Assembly: GCA_022828105.1 (NCBI GenBank)
Contig: JAJEJC010000005.1
Coordinates: forward strand, 1-64,000
From: Dehalococcoidia bacterium
GTDB lineage: Bacteria > Chloroflexota > Dehalococcoidia > Bin125
DNA length: 64,000 nt
Direction: 5' to 3'
The translations under genes were made by a program, and so were the position numbers. Position 1 is the stretch's first letter; each line of letters begins with the position of its first letter. This document shows positions 21,353 to 52,192 of the stretch, one piece after another. Under the pieces are notes generated by a model. It was not told the origin of the DNA, did not search any database, and saw only the letters and a program-made list of their open reading frames with translations.

Positions 21353-21402
21353 CACCTCCCCCCGCTGCGCGGGGGGAGGTGTCCCGTAGGGACGGAGGGG
21401 GG
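21353..21402 (+). repeat. Two-hairpin palindromic repeat, copy 3
   Basis: CCTCCCCCC-GCTGCGC-GGGGGGAGG stem, then a small GTCCCGTAGGGAC hairpin, then GGAGGGGGG. The final G-run lies 7-12 bases before the GTG start of the next gene and looks able to act as its ribosome-binding site. Confidence 0.85.
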
Positions 21403-21408
21403 TCCGAC

Positions 21409-22053
21409 GTGACGCAAGCACCAGACGACCCGCCCTTCGAAGACGCCCACTTTCAGCGGGTCGACGAGTCGGACGACGCGCGGTTCTACGTCGAGCCGCG
21501 GCTGGTCACCCATATTGACGATGCCGCGATCGGCGCGCTGCGCGAGCACTACTCGAAGTTCCTGCCCAGGCAGGGCCGGCTGCTCGACCTGATGTCGTCG
21601 TGGGTCTCGCACTATCCCGACGACCTGGAGTCGGAGCGCGTCGCCGGGCTGGGCATGAACGCCGAGGAGCTGGCGGAGAATCCGCAGCTGACCGAGTGGG
21701 TCGTGCATGACCTCAACGCGGAGCCGGTGCTGCCCTTCGGCGACGGCGAGTTCGACGTGGTCACAATCGCGGTCTCGGTGCAGTACCTGACGCGCCCGCT
21801 GGAGGTGTTCCAGGAGATCGGCCGCGTGCTGCGCCCAGGCGGCGGCTGCATCGTGTCGTTCTCGAACCGCTGCTTCCCGACCAAGGCAGTCCGGCTCTGG
21901 CAGGGCATGGGCGACGAGGGGCACGTGCAGTTGGTCGGCGCCTACTTCCACTACTCGGGAGCGTTCGAAGCCCCGCAGTGGCACGACATCTCCCCCGCCA
22001 AGGGCCGCAGCGACCCGATGTACGTCGTGCAGTCGCGGACGCCTCAGGCCTGA
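21409..22053 (+). CDS. Class I SAM-methyltransferase-like protein
   Basis: A 214-residue Rossmann methyltransferase-like protein. Post-I and later motifs are clear: LPFGDGEFDVVTIAVSVQYL is motif II/III-like, and EIGRVLRPGGGCIVSFSNR is motif IV/V-like. Motif I, normally a Gly-rich E/DxGxGxG loop, reads LLDLMSSWVSHYP and has no glycines. The substrate and even catalytic activity are therefore uncertain. The frame is open to 21379, but that stretch is the palindromic repeat. The GTG at 21409 follows GGAGGGG from the repeat and was chosen. Its last 10 bases overlap the 3' end of the hicA-like gene on the other strand. Confidence 0.75.
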   Translation: MTQAPDDPPFEDAHFQRVDESDDARFYVEPRLVTHIDDAAIGALREHYSKFLPRQGRLLDLMSSWVSHYPDDLESERVAGLGMNAEELAENPQLTEWVVHDLNAEPVLPFGDGEFDVVTIAVSVQYLTRPLEVFQEIGRVLRPGGGCIVSFSNRCFPTKAVRLWQGMGDEGHVQLVGAYFHYSGAFEAPQWHDISPAKGRSDPMYVVQSRTPQA

Positions 22054-22253
22054 TCGAAGTCGCGCTTGTCGATGCCGAGATCTCTTCGGATTTGAGCGAT
22101 CGTGCCGGGCTTCAGGTCCCTACTGCCCCAGTTAGGCACGAGGGCGGTCTTCCTCGTGACGGGATTTCGCCACATCTCGTGTGACCCCTTGGCTTGCCGT
22201 TCGAAGTCACATCCGCAAGCGCGAAGCTTGCGAGCGAGCACGCGATAGTTCAC
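22044..22253 (-). CDS. hicA: HicA-type mRNA interferase toxin
   Basis: A 69-residue HicA protein with a small double-stranded-RNA-binding-like fold. The catalytic His lies in AKGSHEMWRNP (about residues 21-31), and the C-terminal LKPGTIAQIRRDLGI is typical. HicA cleaves mRNA when it is not bound by HicB. Its ATG overlaps the hicB stop by 4 bases (ATGA), so translation is coupled. Here hicB precedes hicA, the reverse of the commonest order. The gene is 3' of a hicB copy and close to a DNA methylase, which is a defence-type neighbourhood. Its stop region overlaps the end of the opposing methyltransferase gene. Confidence 0.88.
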   Translation of the reverse strand: MNYRVLARKLRACGCDFERQAKGSHEMWRNPVTRKTALVPNWGSRDLKPGTIAQIRRDLGIDKRDFDQA

Positions 22254-22498
22254 GTGTTGACGGTGAGTTCGCCGCGTTGGGCGACCGCAGCGACGAGAGC
22301 AGCCGGCAGTGGGTCACCGTGTTCGCGGTAGGAGTCGATGAACGCCTGCGCAACGCTCTCGATGTATTCGAGCGCCAGCTCGGGCGTCTCGCCCCACGCC
22401 CGGCAGCCCGGCAACGCAGGAACCTCGGCCATGTACATGTCGTCGGTACCCTCGCAGGGCGCATACATCACGTAGGACAGTTGGATCTGCTTTGACAT
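22250..22498 (-). CDS. hicB: HicB-type antitoxin
   Basis: An 82-residue HicB protein. The partial RNase-H-like fold is represented by YMAEVPALPGCRAWGETPELALEYIE (shown by MAEVPALPGCRAWGETP, about 28-44), followed by a helix and a C-terminal tail. It neutralises HicA and, in related pairs, represses its own promoter. There is no clear ribbon-helix-helix or HTH domain at this length, so DNA binding is doubtful. The ATG at 22498 was chosen. A GTG six codons upstream (22516) is the alternative. It is co-transcribed with hicA through a 4-base overlap. Confidence 0.87.
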   Translation of the reverse strand: MSKQIQLSYVMYAPCEGTDDMYMAEVPALPGCRAWGETPELALEYIESVAQAFIDSYREHGDPLPAALVAAVAQRGELTVNT

Positions 22499-22512
22499 TT
22501 CTTCACCGTTCC

Positions 22513-22755
22513 TCACGTCGTGCGGTCACTGCCCTCAAGATATCTCGGTGCCGGAGTGAGGGTTGAGCGGACAATTTGGGTACTGTTGGACGGTTTTGTC
22601 GCTCTGGATTGAGAATTCTGCGAAAAACCGTCCGGATCAGTCCAGATTTGTCCAGATTTGTCTCGGTTATGCCAGATTTGGTGAGTGTCATTCTCGGCAG
22701 ATCCGGCTTGATCCGGGTCAGTCCGGGTGTCGGTGTTGGCGGTGAGGTTGGTCAT
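22513..22755 (-). CDS. Possible small Asp/Thr/Gln-rich protein encoded across a decamer-repeat tract
   Basis: An 80-residue frame starting ATG at 22755 with GGAG about 6 bases upstream, ending 14 bases before hicB on the same strand. The first third is polar and GC3-rich (MTNLTANTDTRTDPDQAG). The middle encodes peptide repeats of the type DKSGQIWTDPDG, which simply mirror the 10-base DNA periodicity. The last third has lost the GC3 bias. No family is recognised. It could be a genuine leader gene of the hicBA unit or an accidental frame over a repeat array. The good start signal is the main argument in its favour. Confidence 0.3.
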   Translation of the reverse strand: MTNLTANTDTRTDPDQAGSAENDTHQIWHNRDKSGQIWTDPDGFSQNSQSRATKPSNSTQIVRSTLTPAPRYLEGSDRTT

Positions 22756-22902
22756 GTGTGCTCCGTCAAGTGGTAGCCAGACATTCTGGCGGCATCGATT
22801 GTATGCGGACGGATGTTCTTGTGGCGGAGGGAGAGGTTATCGGGGCGACAGAGGGGTGAGCGGAGGCAATGGAGCGGCTTGGGCGTAGTAGAGGTTGAAG
22901 GC
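22517..22902. other. 386-bp gap between the DNA methylase and hicB
   Basis: This stretch has lower GC than its surroundings. It holds the decamer-repeat tract (22629-22735) and a doubtful small frame (22513-22755). Bases 22756-22902 show no gene, hairpin or promoter that I can support. Confidence 0.5.
22629..22735. repeat. Decamer-periodic repeat tract upstream of hicB
   Basis: About ten successive near-10-base units. Examples are GTCCGGATCA, GTCCAGATTT (twice in a row) and TGCCAGATTT, then GATCCGGCTT and GATCCGGGTC. The spacing is one helical turn, which would put all units on one DNA face. It lies 5' of hicB on the minus strand. Confidence 0.65.
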
Positions 22903-25900
22903 TCAGGAACGATCGTTGCGGGGGACTGACTTCTCGCCGCTGTCGGTGAAGACGACGCGTGACTTCTTGCCTCCGTGGATCTGGGGTTCTCGGGCGAGTT
23001 TGCGTCGGATGAGGTCGATGGGGCCGCCGGGTTCGACCAGTGACTCGGGCAGGCCGAGGACATCGACGAGAATGGCGCGGTCGAGTTTGGCTCGGGCCGG
23101 GTCTTCGTCGATCTGGTCGAAGGGGAGGAAGCGCTCGTCGCGGAGGAGGTCGAACTGTCGCCTGGCCTCGGCGTGCTGCTCGTCGGTGAGGGCGCGCGTG
23201 TCGAGGGTTGGAATGTTGGGGATGCCCGTGACGGTCGTGGTGCCTCGGCCTGCCTGAGTCTTGTTGCTCACCCACCAATGGAGGAGCAGACCGAGCGTGG
23301 AATTGCACCACAAGGAAAACACGTACTCATGAGTGGGCCTACTAAAGATCATCGACGGCCAAGCACGACCACCAAGACACTTCTGCTGCGTCATAGCAAT
23401 GATGATCGATTGAGCGTTGAACTGAAGATCACCGTTGTAGTGAGCGCGTGTCGCGGTGGCCCAGATGTCAGCGGCCCTCTTGTCTACCTTGGGCTGATCA
23501 GATGGCCAAGACTTGATATGTCCTTCAGAGTCTGGGTCGACGATCAATTCGCGTTCGTTGGGAGCGTCATGCGCCCAAAGCATCGGGTAGGTCGGCTCAG
23601 GAGACTGCGCCGGCATGATGTGTTGGAAGGGACCGCGCGGCGATCCATCGGTCAGATCGGAGCGGATGTCCAGGTGATACGGGCCGACCCTGGCGATGTT
23701 TCTCATGCGAACAACCTCCAGCGGAATGCCCGCTGTTGCAGGTTGACCAACCTGGACGATTGCTCCATTGGTGAGTGCGAAGGCGGCCTGCGCCAAGGTC
23801 TGATCGGTAACGCCGACCATCGGCCACGGCCCGGACTTGGGAATCGGCGCGCGCACGACGGATCCGAAGTGCTGCTCCCCCAAACGCATCGGGAGACTCT
23901 GATCAATCGAGTCCGCGATCGAACCCAGTCCGCCGCTGTGTTGCGCCCGATCCATCTGAATCGCTGCTTCGGCGCCGAGCGACGTCGATGCCGGTTGCTG
24001 ATTCAGTATCGCGAACGTCGCATCGTCAGAAGCCCGGTCGTCAATGGTCCTCTTGCGTGTGACGAGCAGGCATTCCGCCATGCCGGTGTCCGCAGAGAAC
24101 GACCGCTCATGGGTGTCCTCGGCAGAGATTGTCACGACTGTTGTAGCGGCGCAGCGCTCCCGGATGGCCTTTCGCACAGGCTCCCAGGTAAGGCCGCTCA
24201 TGCTGCTCAACGGCAGCACCAGTGCGAGCGTTCCGCCTGGTCGCAGTTTGCGCAGGCCGAGATCGACGAAGTGCGCCGCCATGCCCGCGTTGCCGGAGCC
24301 GAGCCGTTCCGCGCCAGAGACGCGGCGCAACTGCTTCTGCATCGCATCCTGAGTCTTGCGATCGGTCTCGAAGGCCGCGAACGCAGCGTTGCCGATTCCG
24401 ACACGCTCAGCCTCCTGCCCTCCTTGACGAGTGAACGGAGGGTTCATGATCACGAGGTCGAACTGTCCGTGTCCGACCTGCGTCATCAGGTCTCGGACGT
24501 CTTCGGGTCGCCGTCCGCCGGCGGTGACGGCGGCAGCGTCATCGATCATGTTGGGCGAGACGTGTTCAGCCAAGAGTTCCAGCGAGCCGATCGAGGCGGC
24601 GTCTCCGCCGTACGGCATTGTCAGCAAGCATTCGCCCTCGAACGGGACGTCGGGGTGCGCGCCGGCGAGGGTGGCGGCGGTCAGGTGGACGGCGATGTTG
24701 AGGACGTCGAGGCCGACGAGGCCGTGCTTCATCATGGGGGCGTGGAGCTTGCGCGGGTCGCCTCCGTTGAGCTCGTGCAGCAGCGAGATGCGCTGGTAGG
24801 CGGCGGGGAGCAGCGTGCCGGTGCCGCAGGCGAAGTCGCCGATCTGGAGGGCGGCGATGGTCTCCTCATCGCCCCACTCGGCGCCGCCGGGGGCGCGGTC
24901 GGCGGGGATCGCGAGTCCGGCCAGCAGGGCGGCGGCGGCCGGTCGGGTGTAGAAGGTGGCGAGGAACTTGCGGTCGGCGATGAGGCGCTGGAAGATGACG
25001 CCGGTCAGGTCGTGAGATTTGGTCACGCCGCCCTGGACCAGCTGGTTGGCGGCGTTCCAGAGGGGCTGGAGGACGTCGCCGACGGTGGCGATGGGCAGCT
25101 TGAGCAGGATCTCGCGGGCGGTGGCGAAGATGGGCCAGTAGTTGACGTCGAGGATCAGGTTCCACTCGTCGGTGAGGGCGTCGCGGCGGTAGCTGTAGTC
25201 GGAGTCGCGGAAGTGGGAGAGCGGGTGGACTCGGCGGCCGGTCGAGGACTGGTCGCTGTCGGCCTGCGGTGGGCCCCCTGCGTCGCTCTGCGACACCTCC
25301 CCCGGAGGGGGAGGTGTTTGACGTTCGATGCGGAAGCCGGCTTCGGCGAGGGCTTCGTGGAAGATGAGGGCGTTGATGAGCACGGTCATCGCCATCCGGC
25401 GGGTCTGGCCGCCCTGGTCGTCGGCCTGACCGAGCAGCTCGGCGATCTCGGGTCCGAGTTCGCCGGCGGCGTGCGATCCGTGGCGGTCGGTGAAGCGGTG
25501 GGCGGCGTTTTCGATGCCCTGTTCCAGCACTACGCCCAGGCGCTCGATGCGCGGCGCAGGCATCGAGGCTCGGTGGGCGAGCATGGCGAGGTCTTTGGCG
25601 GAGCCGTTCAGCCAACCGGATTCGGGCAGGCGTTCCTCGCCTCCGGCGATCGTGCGCGTGTAGAGCGCGTACTCCAGGGCGTCGGTCAGCCGGAGTTCGT
25701 CGCGCAGGGCCTGTCCGTTCAAGTCGAGCACCGACTCCGGACAGACGAGGGCGATGGCGCTCTCAATCGGCTTGCCGGTCTCGTTGACGATCAGCCCCAG
25801 CCGGCCAAGGGCATCCTGCTCGGCGCTTGGGTGGTTGGTGCGCTCGGCTTCGATGACGACGGGCCACTGGGAGGCTTCCTCGATCAGGATGTCGGGCTGC

Positions 25901-26016
25901 TTGGCGGCGTCCTGAAGGGTTCGCGTCTCCTCGGCGTGCACTCGCCAGCTATGGGGTCGGAGTCCGGCGAGCACTTCGCCGAGAGCGACGTTGATCGTGT
26001 GCTCGTGGGTGGCCAT
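22903..26016 (-). CDS. N6-adenine DNA methyltransferase with nuclease-like N-terminus (possible single-chain restriction-modification enzyme)
   Basis: A 1037-residue protein. The central methyltransferase has motif I DFACGTGTLLPAAY (near residue 392) and motif IV NPPF (near 523), the gamma-class N6-adenine pattern. The first 110 residues contain PDILIEEASQWPVVIEAE, which matches a PD-(D/E)xK nuclease core except that the last residue is Glu instead of Lys. The C-terminal third resembles target-recognition or helical regions and ends in a basic tail. Residues 233-248 (TPPPPGEVSQSDAGGPP) are encoded by an inserted palindromic repeat. No specificity subunit or helicase is adjacent. It could be type IIG-like, an orphan methylase or a degenerate relative. 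hicBA lies just downstream. Confidence 0.8.
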   Translation of the reverse strand: MATHEHTINVALGEVLAGLRPHSWRVHAEETRTLQDAAKQPDILIEEASQWPVVIEAERTNHPSAEQDALGRLGLIVNETGKPIESAIALVCPESVLDLNGQALRDELRLTDALEYALYTRTIAGGEERLPESGWLNGSAKDLAMLAHRASMPAPRIERLGVVLEQGIENAAHRFTDRHGSHAAGELGPEIAELLGQADDQGGQTRRMAMTVLINALIFHEALAEAGFRIERQTPPPPGEVSQSDAGGPPQADSDQSSTGRRVHPLSHFRDSDYSYRRDALTDEWNLILDVNYWPIFATAREILLKLPIATVGDVLQPLWNAANQLVQGGVTKSHDLTGVIFQRLIADRKFLATFYTRPAAAALLAGLAIPADRAPGGAEWGDEETIAALQIGDFACGTGTLLPAAYQRISLLHELNGGDPRKLHAPMMKHGLVGLDVLNIAVHLTAATLAGAHPDVPFEGECLLTMPYGGDAASIGSLELLAEHVSPNMIDDAAAVTAGGRRPEDVRDLMTQVGHGQFDLVIMNPPFTRQGGQEAERVGIGNAAFAAFETDRKTQDAMQKQLRRVSGAERLGSGNAGMAAHFVDLGLRKLRPGGTLALVLPLSSMSGLTWEPVRKAIRERCAATTVVTISAEDTHERSFSADTGMAECLLVTRKRTIDDRASDDATFAILNQQPASTSLGAEAAIQMDRAQHSGGLGSIADSIDQSLPMRLGEQHFGSVVRAPIPKSGPWPMVGVTDQTLAQAAFALTNGAIVQVGQPATAGIPLEVVRMRNIARVGPYHLDIRSDLTDGSPRGPFQHIMPAQSPEPTYPMLWAHDAPNERELIVDPDSEGHIKSWPSDQPKVDKRAADIWATATRAHYNGDLQFNAQSIIIAMTQQKCLGGRAWPSMIFSRPTHEYVFSLWCNSTLGLLLHWWVSNKTQAGRGTTTVTGIPNIPTLDTRALTDEQHAEARRQFDLLRDERFLPFDQIDEDPARAKLDRAILVDVLGLPESLVEPGGPIDLIRRKLAREPQIHGGKKSRVVFTDSGEKSVPRNDRS
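25273..25318 (-). repeat. Two-hairpin palindromic repeat inside the DNA methylase gene, copy 4
   Basis: GGGCCCCCTG, then a GTCGC-TCT-GCGAC hairpin, then CACCTCCCCC-GGAGGGGGAGGTG. It has the same two-hairpin plan as the intergenic copies but is read in frame inside the methylase, where it encodes a Pro/Gly-rich loop (residues 233-248). Confidence 0.8.
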
Positions 26017-26051: not shown

Positions 26052-26097
26052 CTCACTCCCCACCTTCGGCATCTCCCCCCGCTTCACGGGAGGAGAG
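26052..26097 (-). repeat. Two-hairpin palindromic repeat, degenerate copy 5
   Basis: CTCACTCCCC, ACCTTCGGCAT, then CTCCCCCC-GCTTCAC-GGGAGGAGAG. The right arm has lost two G residues and the TTCGC loop is TTCAC, so this copy is decayed. It lies between the methylase start and a luciferase-like gene. Confidence 0.75.
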
Positions 26098-26139
26098 TGG
26101 AGTGGAGCGGGTTCCCGGGTGAAGCGGGGACTGGGACCT

Positions 26140-27081
26140 TTAACGGAACTCTGGGATGACCGTCTCGGCAAACATCTGGGCCGGCTCGATCGTGTCTCGG
26201 CCGAAGAACTCGATCATGAACATGTCGCAGCCGAGCTCGACGTGCTTCTCGATGCGCTCTTTGATCATTGAGGGGGTTCCGGTCAGGGCCATGTCGCCGG
26301 CCGGGTTGCCCATGTGACCTCCGAAGATCTTCTGGGCTCGCTCGACCATCGGGCCGACCTTTTCGTCGTCGTCGACGATCGTGACCAGGCACTGCTGCGA
26401 GACACGGATTTCCGAGGGGTCGCGACCCAGGCGCTCGGCGTGGCCGCGGAGGACGGAGATCTTGTGCTCGAGGTCGTCCTGGGCGCCGGCGGAGTTGTTC
26501 CAGATGTCGGCGTACTGCGCGGCGATGCGCATGGTGACCTGCTCGCCGCCGCCGCCGACCAGGATCGGCATGTCGCGCGGGGGCTTGGGCTGGGTGACGA
26601 GGTTCTCGGTGTGGAAGAACTCGCCCTCGAAGGAGAACTCCTCCTGGTCGGCGTCGAACATGCCCTTGAAGATCTGCAGGCCCTCCTCGAGCTGGCGCAG
26701 GCGGTCGCGGGTCGAGACGAAGGGCATGCCGAAGTCGGAGAATTCGCGCGCCATCCAACCGGAGCCGAAGCCGGGGATCACACGTCCGCCGGCGATGTTG
26801 TCGACGGTGGCGATCATCTTGCCGGTGTGCGCCGGGTTGCGCATGCCGACGGGGGTGACGAGCGTGCCGATTTCCGGCTTCTCGGTCACGGCCGCGATGC
26901 CGGCGGCGAGGGTCCAGGCCTCGAGCATGGGGATCGCGGGCGACTGCGGGCCGTAGAGGTGGTCGTTGACCCAGAGTGAGTCGAAGCCCATCTCTTCAAA
27001 CGCCGAGGCGGCGCGCTGCGTCTCCTGCCAGGTGCGCTTGATCTGGGGAACCATGACGCCGAAATGTGGGCTGTTGGTCAC
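26140..27081 (-). CDS. Luciferase-like (LLM class) F420/flavin-dependent oxidoreductase
   Basis: A 313-residue TIM-barrel oxidoreductase of the bacterial luciferase superfamily. MVPQIKRTWQETQRAASAFE is at the N-terminus, followed by the DSLWVNDHLYGPQ loop (about 36-48). The TVDNIAGGRVIPGFGSGW phosphate region is near 92-109 and DMPILVGGGGEQVTMRIAA near 160-178. These features fit the F420-dependent subgroup well, but the cofactor is not certain. The C-terminus carries the short EFFGRDTIEPAQM segment. Its role is probably oxidation of an organic substrate. It is 123 bp upstream of the methylase on the same strand, separated by a repeat. Confidence 0.88.
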   Translation of the reverse strand: MTNSPHFGVMVPQIKRTWQETQRAASAFEEMGFDSLWVNDHLYGPQSPAIPMLEAWTLAAGIAAVTEKPEIGTLVTPVGMRNPAHTGKMIATVDNIAGGRVIPGFGSGWMAREFSDFGMPFVSTRDRLRQLEEGLQIFKGMFDADQEEFSFEGEFFHTENLVTQPKPPRDMPILVGGGGEQVTMRIAAQYADIWNNSAGAQDDLEHKISVLRGHAERLGRDPSEIRVSQQCLVTIVDDDEKVGPMVERAQKIFGGHMGNPAGDMALTGTPSMIKERIEKHVELGCDMFMIEFFGRDTIEPAQMFAETVIPEFR

Positions 27082-51652: not shown

Positions 51653-51730
51653 TGCCCGGGCAGGACTTGAATCCGCAATCTAGCGGCTATCGGCCGCCCG
51701 CTCTGACGCTGAGTCAGGCCGACGGGCTAA
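51653..51730 (-). pseudogene. Decayed tRNA-Asn-like copy (possible attachment-site remnant)
   Basis: About 54 bases match the 3' two-thirds of the intact tRNA-Asn gene at 52222, from acceptor and T arm to anticodon stem. The anticodon loop reads CCGATAG: it has lost U33 and asparagine identity. The T stem has a mismatch and there is no CCA. The 5' third is rearranged. It is not functional. With the intact tRNA it flanks a hicAB pair, as expected for an island at a tRNA site. Confidence 0.6.
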
Positions 51731-51929
51731 CCAACTCGCATGCCGGCTCTGGTATCGGATGTCCGAACTCTCTCGCTGTGTCAATCCAGAGCGACATCGC
51801 GACCTGCGCCTCTTGGAGCGCCTCTTCGTAGGATTCGCCGTGCGCCGAACACCCGGGCAACTCCGGCATGTGAGCGATGTATGCGTCGTCCTCGTCGCTC
51901 CAAAAGATGATGATTTCGTACTGGAGCAT
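51714..51929 (-). CDS. HicB-family antitoxin
   Basis: A 71-residue HicB-like protein. EIIIFWSDEDDAYIAHMP and ELPGCSAHGESYEEALQEAQ (about 5-42) form the partial RNase-H fold common to the family, followed by one helix and a short C-terminus. No DNA-binding tail is visible. It neutralises the upstream HicA-like toxin. The start overlaps the hicA stop (ATG with TGA/TAA overlap by one base). The stop end overlaps the decayed tRNA by 17 bases. It is part of the AT-richer island between tRNA-Gln and tRNA-Asn and is not closely related to the other hicB at 22.3 kb. Confidence 0.85.
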   Translation of the reverse strand: MLQYEIIIFWSDEDDAYIAHMPELPGCSAHGESYEEALQEAQVAMSLWIDTAREFGHPIPEPACELVSPSA

Positions 51930-52192
51930 CAGTTGCCTCCTGAAACATCGCGCAGGTTGTGCTTCACGAGCACATTTCGAAGCTGTCGCAGTTGATATGG
52001 CTTCGCGTCTGATCCACCCGGTTGCAGGTTCACCTGGTCCTCGATGCCTGCTTTCGTGTACACGTAATGGCTCCCCCGGATTCGCTCCCTAAAGCCGAGT
52101 CTAGCGAGAAGCGACCGGACATCGTCGAAGCGGATGTTAGCCAGGTGTGAACCATCGAGAATGCGGTTCAGCAGCCGTTGATGCCGGTTCAA
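51929..52192 (-). CDS. HicA-family toxin
   Basis: An 87-residue HicA-like mRNA interferase. IRFDDVRSLLARLGFRERIR and the catalytic His in RGSHYVYTKAGIED (about 39-52) are followed by KPYQLRQLRNVLVKHNL, the typical C-terminal helix. An unusually long N-terminus of about 20 residues (MNRHQRLLNRILDGSHLANI) precedes the usual start. The order hicA-hicB is canonical here, unlike the other pair in this window. It lies 29 bp from the intact tRNA-Asn gene, which suggests delivery with an island. Confidence 0.85.
   Translation of the reverse strand: MNRHQRLLNRILDGSHLANIRFDDVRSLLARLGFRERIRGSHYVYTKAGIEDQVNLQPGGSDAKPYQLRQLRNVLVKHNLRDVSGGN

Follow-up and report, generated by a model that had tools for sequence, protein, structure and literature searches.

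A large N6-adenine methylase gene, an intergenic stretch carrying a 10-base periodic array, and the genes hicB and hicA follow one another in that order on the minus strand of the 64,000-nucleotide stretch of Dehalococcoidia DNA analysed here (the window), which raises the question of whether they form one defence system or are separate elements lying side by side. A sequence-only reading of this DNA had proposed one compact system. We find instead that the locus is probably a stand-alone Type IIG-like restriction-modification enzyme in a variable slot, a reading that we hold with good confidence, and that hicBA and the array are no part of this enzyme. The named parts are ordinary (a Type IIG-like enzyme and a Class 2 hicBA pair) and a system combining them is unsupported; what is unexpected is the presence of dispersed decamer arrays with LexA-like boxes, and of a defence-linked module at the tail of the enzyme. 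Every genome of the genus used in these comparisons is a metagenome bin.

The assignment of the methylase gene (22903–26016, minus strand, 1037 codons) to a Type IIG-like restriction-modification enzyme draws on the open reading frame, a family alignment, a structure model and a structural match. Sequence libraries return weak methylase matches only for the 1037-residue protein, and a PDB sequence search with this single protein gives no match. Its methylase core (residues 351–660; 24037–24966, minus strand) contains the motifs expected of a gamma-type N6-adenine methylase, an FxGxG-like motif I and NPPF, as DFACGTG (residues 394–400) and NPPF (525–528), both invariant in 20 homologues with the exception of F395, and the identification of a 1037-residue N6-adenine methylase by the sequence-only reading is borne out. 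A whole-chain model built from a 20-member alignment, with identities down to 34%, has a pLDDT of 82 and a pTM of 0.86, and when compared over its full length with the PDB it is matched best by RM.BpuSI, a Type IIG enzyme (PDB 3s1s, E = 8e-16), followed by BrxX, CamA and DrdV. The predicted structure places nuclease, methylase and target recognition in one chain. As the earlier reading had noted, no S subunit or helicase is evident beside the methylase in the window, and none of the partners R, M, S or helicase is evident beside the homologues, whose loci were judged by gene length and sequence.

That reading had also picked out a PD-(D/E)xK-like core, PDILIE...VVIEAE, at what are residues 41–58, and structure prediction indeed gives a PD-(D/E)xK fold over residues 1–153 (25558–26016, minus strand). 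Residues 1–235 modelled alone reach a pLDDT of 85, with the helix and strand order of the PD-(D/E)xK topology, and residues 1–153 match restriction-endonuclease folds in VIA-align at Z-scores of 9.1 (1wdj), 8.2 (3ijm) and 7.7 (the nuclease domain of DrdV), where values of 7–9 are middling; most top rows of this comparison belong to one superfamily. For this domain, Foldseek by itself returns nothing significant (best E = 0.015). The models support a PD-(D/E)xK nuclease fold at the N-terminus and, for the 1037-residue protein as a whole, a nuclease-methylase fusion of Type IIG layout, from which both DNA cleavage and methylation are predicted. In such an enzyme, the target-recognition domain of the single chain would recognise a DNA site, the methylase part would modify an adenine within it, and the N-terminal domain would cut foreign DNA lacking this methylation, and its role would be phage defence.

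The region between the methylase core and the C-terminal part, residues 661–835 (23512–24036, minus strand), stands out in the identity profile, with 36–41% identity to the homologues at L003, L005 and L006 and 70–88% in both flanks, and we read it as a putative target-recognition region that has been exchanged. Three further methylase copies are present in the genome containing the window (G000), two of them 83% and 72% identical and the third more distant, at 33%. In the paralogue of contig C9 (G000:C9:519143-522181), identity is 91% in the target-recognition region and 71% in the nuclease domain; these genes are therefore mosaics, and the copies on C5 and C9 may have the same DNA target. 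The distant copy (L004, G000:C4:45986-48088; 33% identity) represents a second methylase subfamily, with matches at a similar level in many genomes of the genus. Homologue loci in other genomes are found in Chloroflexota, Planctomycetota, Gemmata, Sphingopyxis, Acidimicrobiales, Bacteroidetes and others.

The slot that holds the enzyme lies between a conserved SAM-methyltransferase gene (21379–22053, plus strand), which is 87–89% identical at the DNA level in five relatives, and a luciferase-like monooxygenase gene (26140–27081, minus strand). In relatives, the place beside the SAM-methyltransferase and the array is taken by an MmeI-type enzyme (G003), an AIPR/Mrr gene (G008), a surface protein (G006), or a peptidase-like gene with a hicB remnant (G014, which lacks this methylase here); two of these occupants are of a defence type. 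Since other species carry other genes here, the slot is variable and the methylase is just one of its occupants. Upstream of the methylase, the intergenic stretch 26063–26135 has copies 81–92% identical near the paralogue loci L020 and L021 and is another dispersed intergenic repeat.

The C-terminal end of the enzyme, residues 1002–1037 with the stop codon (22903–23013, minus strand), also occurs on its own beside defence genes in relatives. A family search returns stand-alone matches to the last ~36 methylase residues, with a 35-codon core, in many relatives, and the complete core is present without the methylase at eight loci in seven related genomes. This 105-nt core is 81.5% identical between the orphans and its flanks are 29% and 34% identical, which defines sharp borders; the breakpoints cluster within about five codons but do not coincide at a single base. 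A defence-type gene neighbours the tail at all eight loci: HNH_2 (G013 and G012b), XcyI (G006), DUF1828 (G001, with a homologue in G012a), DprA/SLOG (G010), ApeA-HEPN (G008, divergent) and an N6/N4-methylase with Eco29kI (G014, divergent), a count in which we take the DUF1828 and DprA/SLOG genes to be of defence type. Incomplete tails comprise a partial one by trypsin-like genes (G003), a broken one (G005) and a short remnant by glyA (G263). One slot is marked by a trypsin-like gene (60–79% identity), which lies beside the tail in G001, G006 and G012, beside the partial tail in G003 and, in G004, beside the complete methylase; the orphan loci of G010 and G013 have a CoA-transferase slot in common. 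Because slots are partly shared, independent events number fewer than eight. At L059 5361–6867 (G012 contig C7), two tail units stand in tandem, in the order HNH_2, tail, a 154-residue gene, DUF1828, tail, a LexA-like box with a decamer array, and a convergent trypsin-like gene.

We find signs of coding-type selection in the history of the orphan tails. None of the eight contains a stop or frameshift in 105 nt; changes per pair at the three codon positions are 1.6/1.9/10.7 in six orphans and 2.9/3.3/11.8 in full-length copies; and three orphan peptides are identical though 6–8 of 20 fourfold sites differ. Divergence at fourfold sites is lower in the tail than in recA (0.31 vs 0.51, and in 20 of 21 pairs, these pairs being non-independent with 16–20 sites each), so that the tails have either a more recent common ancestry than the species or an extra constraint on silent sites, as is expected of exchanged DNA. 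A LexA-like box, scored as described below, lies above the control 95th percentile within 150 nt after the tail in 7 of 13 loci. Fusion of the orphan tail to the preceding gene was considered and rejected, as the frames differ between loci. Starts of the orphan tails are an overlapping ATG (G013 and G006), a TTG behind a stop (G010 and G012b) or of no usual kind (G001 and G012a), and because they differ in this way between loci, translation of the orphan tails is unproven.

The chances are about even that the orphans are recent scars of methylase loss, in which the coding-type conservation is inherited from the intact gene. Degraded pieces of the methylase family do exist, including the tail piece beside glyA, and both the two shared slots (trypsin-like in G001, G006 and G012; CoA-transferase in G010 and G013), which bring the number of events below eight, and the differing translation starts are what such scars would show; less easily reconciled with loss are the eight uninterrupted 105-nt frames, the codon-position pattern, which is tighter in six orphans than in full-length copies, the three peptides that are identical despite 6–8 differences at 20 fourfold sites, and the finding that genomes with orphans keep no full-length copy carrying this tail. 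Tentatively, and with rather less than even probability, we suggest that the last 35 codons are a mobile, separately selected junction module, in front of which unrelated defence genes are swapped in this genus of Dehalococcoidia-like Chloroflexota, often before a LexA-like box. As such a module the constant tail would serve as a recombination anchor, as a translated tag or small peptide, or as both, and may be an exchanged junction for defence cassettes. If this is true, a coding tail that stays constant beside differing anti-phage genes would represent a cassette junction of a new kind, and its larger point would be how defence genes are exchanged.

The array lies between the methylase and hicB (about 22630–22760, minus strand). 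The 10-base periodicity reported by the sequence-only reading is real, with a lag-10 self-match of 0.48 vs 0.40 (99th percentile of shuffles) in a degenerate phasing over ~22760–22630 and six unit-pair matches in the window vs 0.4 expected, but weak, with 2.3 clean copies of GTCCAGATTT by TRF. A search with 300 bases around the array finds matches at many sites in genomes of relatives. The core pattern of this type 1 array, with the unit AATCTGGACA, occurs 107 times in G003, 100 in G014, 76 in G012, 43 in G013, 41 in G008 and 25 in G006, and a control with the pattern read backwards gives 0–2 matches per genome; because matches overlap within arrays, arrays are fewer than matches. The window genome, in which arrays were counted by search, has three matches, two of them in this array. 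The window array is thus one copy of a decamer element that is dispersed in the genus.

Type 1 elements usually stand behind a promoter-like block with a LexA-like box, (A)GAACATnnGTnC...TACAAT, which resembles a LexA box over a promoter, and for nine array copies of G003 there is a G014 counterpart in which conservation extends from this block past the array. In the window, the box GAACATCCGTCC (22807–22818, minus strand) overlaps the block, with a −10 element TACAAT at 22803–22798. GAAC-N4-GTTC boxes are present at the promoters of lexA and recA in ten genomes of the genus, and we built a LexA matrix from these 20 sites. The matrix score at the 5′ ends of arrays has a median of 8.3 vs −0.9 in controls, and 65% of arrays exceed the control 95th percentile; the p of 8e-18 for this excess is overstated because array copies share descent. 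The box in the window scores 10.0, above the control 99th percentile, and LexA control of the arrays is predicted from these matches. A second decamer type, AACCTGAAAR, has 14–50 matches in each of nine genomes of the genus, one match in the window genome and, among the 20 genomes searched, none outside the genus; its arrays have a weaker excess of LexA-like boxes (32% above the 95th percentile, p = 4e-4). Members of this second family (L211–L240, in the nine genomes) often follow AATCCGAACA-type units and are followed by CACGATCTCCAGCAAAACACTGGAGATC-like ends.

We considered several roles for the arrays. A defence-specific one is rejected, since none of ten genes downstream of other type 1 copies is of a defence type; these genes are metabolic, of other function, or unassigned (one without a family). 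A structured RNA is likewise rejected, with no covariation support in nine pairs, one of which is changed on both sides; hairpins behind arrays are rare (a stem of at least 8 behind 1 of 41 copies of type 1 and 2 of 25 of type 2), although the window copy, taken by itself, does fold better than its shuffled versions (z = −2.95). A coding repeat is rejected because one orthologue pair differs by a single 10-nt unit, against a reading frame, and the open frame of the array is uninformative, because a stop-free 10-base unit stays open in every frame. Our best guess is either a small transcript under LexA control or an array phased for protein binding. Among the literature titles and abstracts listed, none is relevant to LexA boxes or to decamer repeats of this group. 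The genus appears to carry decamer arrays by the dozen, of at least two unit types and with LexA-like boxes in front of many, which, if true, would tie dozens of small loci to DNA damage.

The hicB-like antitoxin gene (22250–22516, minus strand; 88 codons, with an inner ATG at 22498) overlaps the hicA toxin gene (22044–22253, minus strand) by four bases. HicA is well above its Pfam cut-off (HicA_toxin, 1.5e-14), and the HicB-like match is sub-threshold (5.8e-5, 23.7 vs 27 bits); HicB is of Class 2 size, and we see in it no other domain and no DNA-binding domain. The order of the two genes had been called the reverse of the usual one, which does not hold: a small HicB puts a hicBA pair in Class 2, and hicBA lacking a DNA-binding domain is the most common bicistronic structure (PMC10865869). 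By its sequence, the pair in the window is a separate, common Class 2 toxin-antitoxin pair. Near homologues of HicA (55–67% identity) occur in five other genomes of the genus, G005, G006, G008, G009 (twice) and G013, and only one of them, in G009 (L006/L052), adjoins the methylase. HicA is encoded twice in the window genome, once at 22 kb of this contig and once on contig C4, and neither gene lies near the other methylase copies. A second HicB-like stretch in the window (51702–51938, minus strand) is 35% identical to this HicB, and neither of the genome's two HicA genes lies near it.

The array with its LexA-like box could be a leader of hicBA that places the pair under SOS control, a local role that would be compatible with a stand-alone enzyme and that we consider unlikely. 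Box and array do point towards hicB, the start of which is ~290 bases behind the box, an 80-codon open reading frame runs through the array and stops in the region where hicB starts, and a Class 2 HicB without a DNA-binding domain leaves room for other regulation; against this, the matching place in G003 and G012 has the array followed by the convergent SAM-methyltransferase with no hicBA, and most other array copies have other neighbours.

For the enzyme itself, the main doubt concerns its nuclease. In all homologues aligned, the catalytic Lys of the ExK motif is replaced by Glu58 (ExE), with D42 and E56 conserved. BamHI is an active enzyme with ExE, a Glu standing in place of the ExK Lys. 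The domain could be inactive, leaving a solitary regulatory adenine methylase like CamA, one of the proteins that match the methylase part best in structure; the missing Lys is common to all homologues, and one distant member, L056, has lost both D42 and E56. We regard this as quite improbable: E29, D42, E56 and E58 do not vary across 18 aligned N-termini with identities as low as 29%, and would hardly be kept by a dead domain, ExE is found in active enzymes, and the patchy distribution and exchanged target region fit restriction. We therefore retain a Type IIG-like restriction-modification enzyme, for which DNA cleavage is likely but, with Glu invariably in place of the catalytic Lys, unproven.

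It is highly improbable that methylase, array and hicBA work together as a single defence locus, in which hicBA would act when restriction fails: the three share a strand, and both genes adjoin in G009 too, with an HTH-type gene between them, but HicA is found neither near the two close methylase paralogues of the same genome nor at methylase loci of other genomes except G009, the array is dispersed and the copies checked elsewhere lie by housekeeping genes, and G014 keeps a hicB remnant with array and SAM-methyltransferase where this methylase is absent. The neighbourhood comparison that the sequence-only reading had proposed thus leaves its one compact system unsupported, although the outcome that it named as refuting, that methylase and hicBA never co-occur, does not strictly hold, since G009 too has them side by side.

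Among known systems, the enzyme is most like RM.BpuSI of Type IIG, with which it shares a single chain composed of an N-terminal PD-(D/E)xK nuclease, a helical part, an N6-adenine methylase and a target-recognition region; it differs in being only ~11% identical in sequence and in having ExE rather than ExK. Type II models, including that of MmeI, do not recognise it at their cut-offs. Type IIL enzymes (MmeI, DrdV) have a similar layout, and DrdV matches both the methylase part and the nuclease domain; in contrast, 0 of 20 family members have an MmeI-family Pfam match, whereas the G003 slot gene does have such matches. PglX/BrxX of BREX has a related methylase and target region, with a weak PglX profile match, whereas the window enzyme has a nuclease domain of its own, and BREX partner genes are absent among the neighbours in the window and beside homologues. 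To these the enzyme would add a Type IIG-like family that is widespread and solitary, has an ExE nuclease site and extends from Chloroflexota to Gemmata and Sphingopyxis. The toxin-antitoxin pair resembles Class 2 HicBA (PMC10865869) in having hicB before hicA, an overlap, and a small HicB without a DNA-binding domain, with no evident difference, the window HicB being a weak Pfam match. The tail module alone recalls integron cassettes, as a constant segment behind varied genes with two tandem units in G012, but its coding-type conservation argues against an attC site. The boxes of the arrays, finally, resemble those at lexA and recA of the genus, as would members of a LexA regulon.
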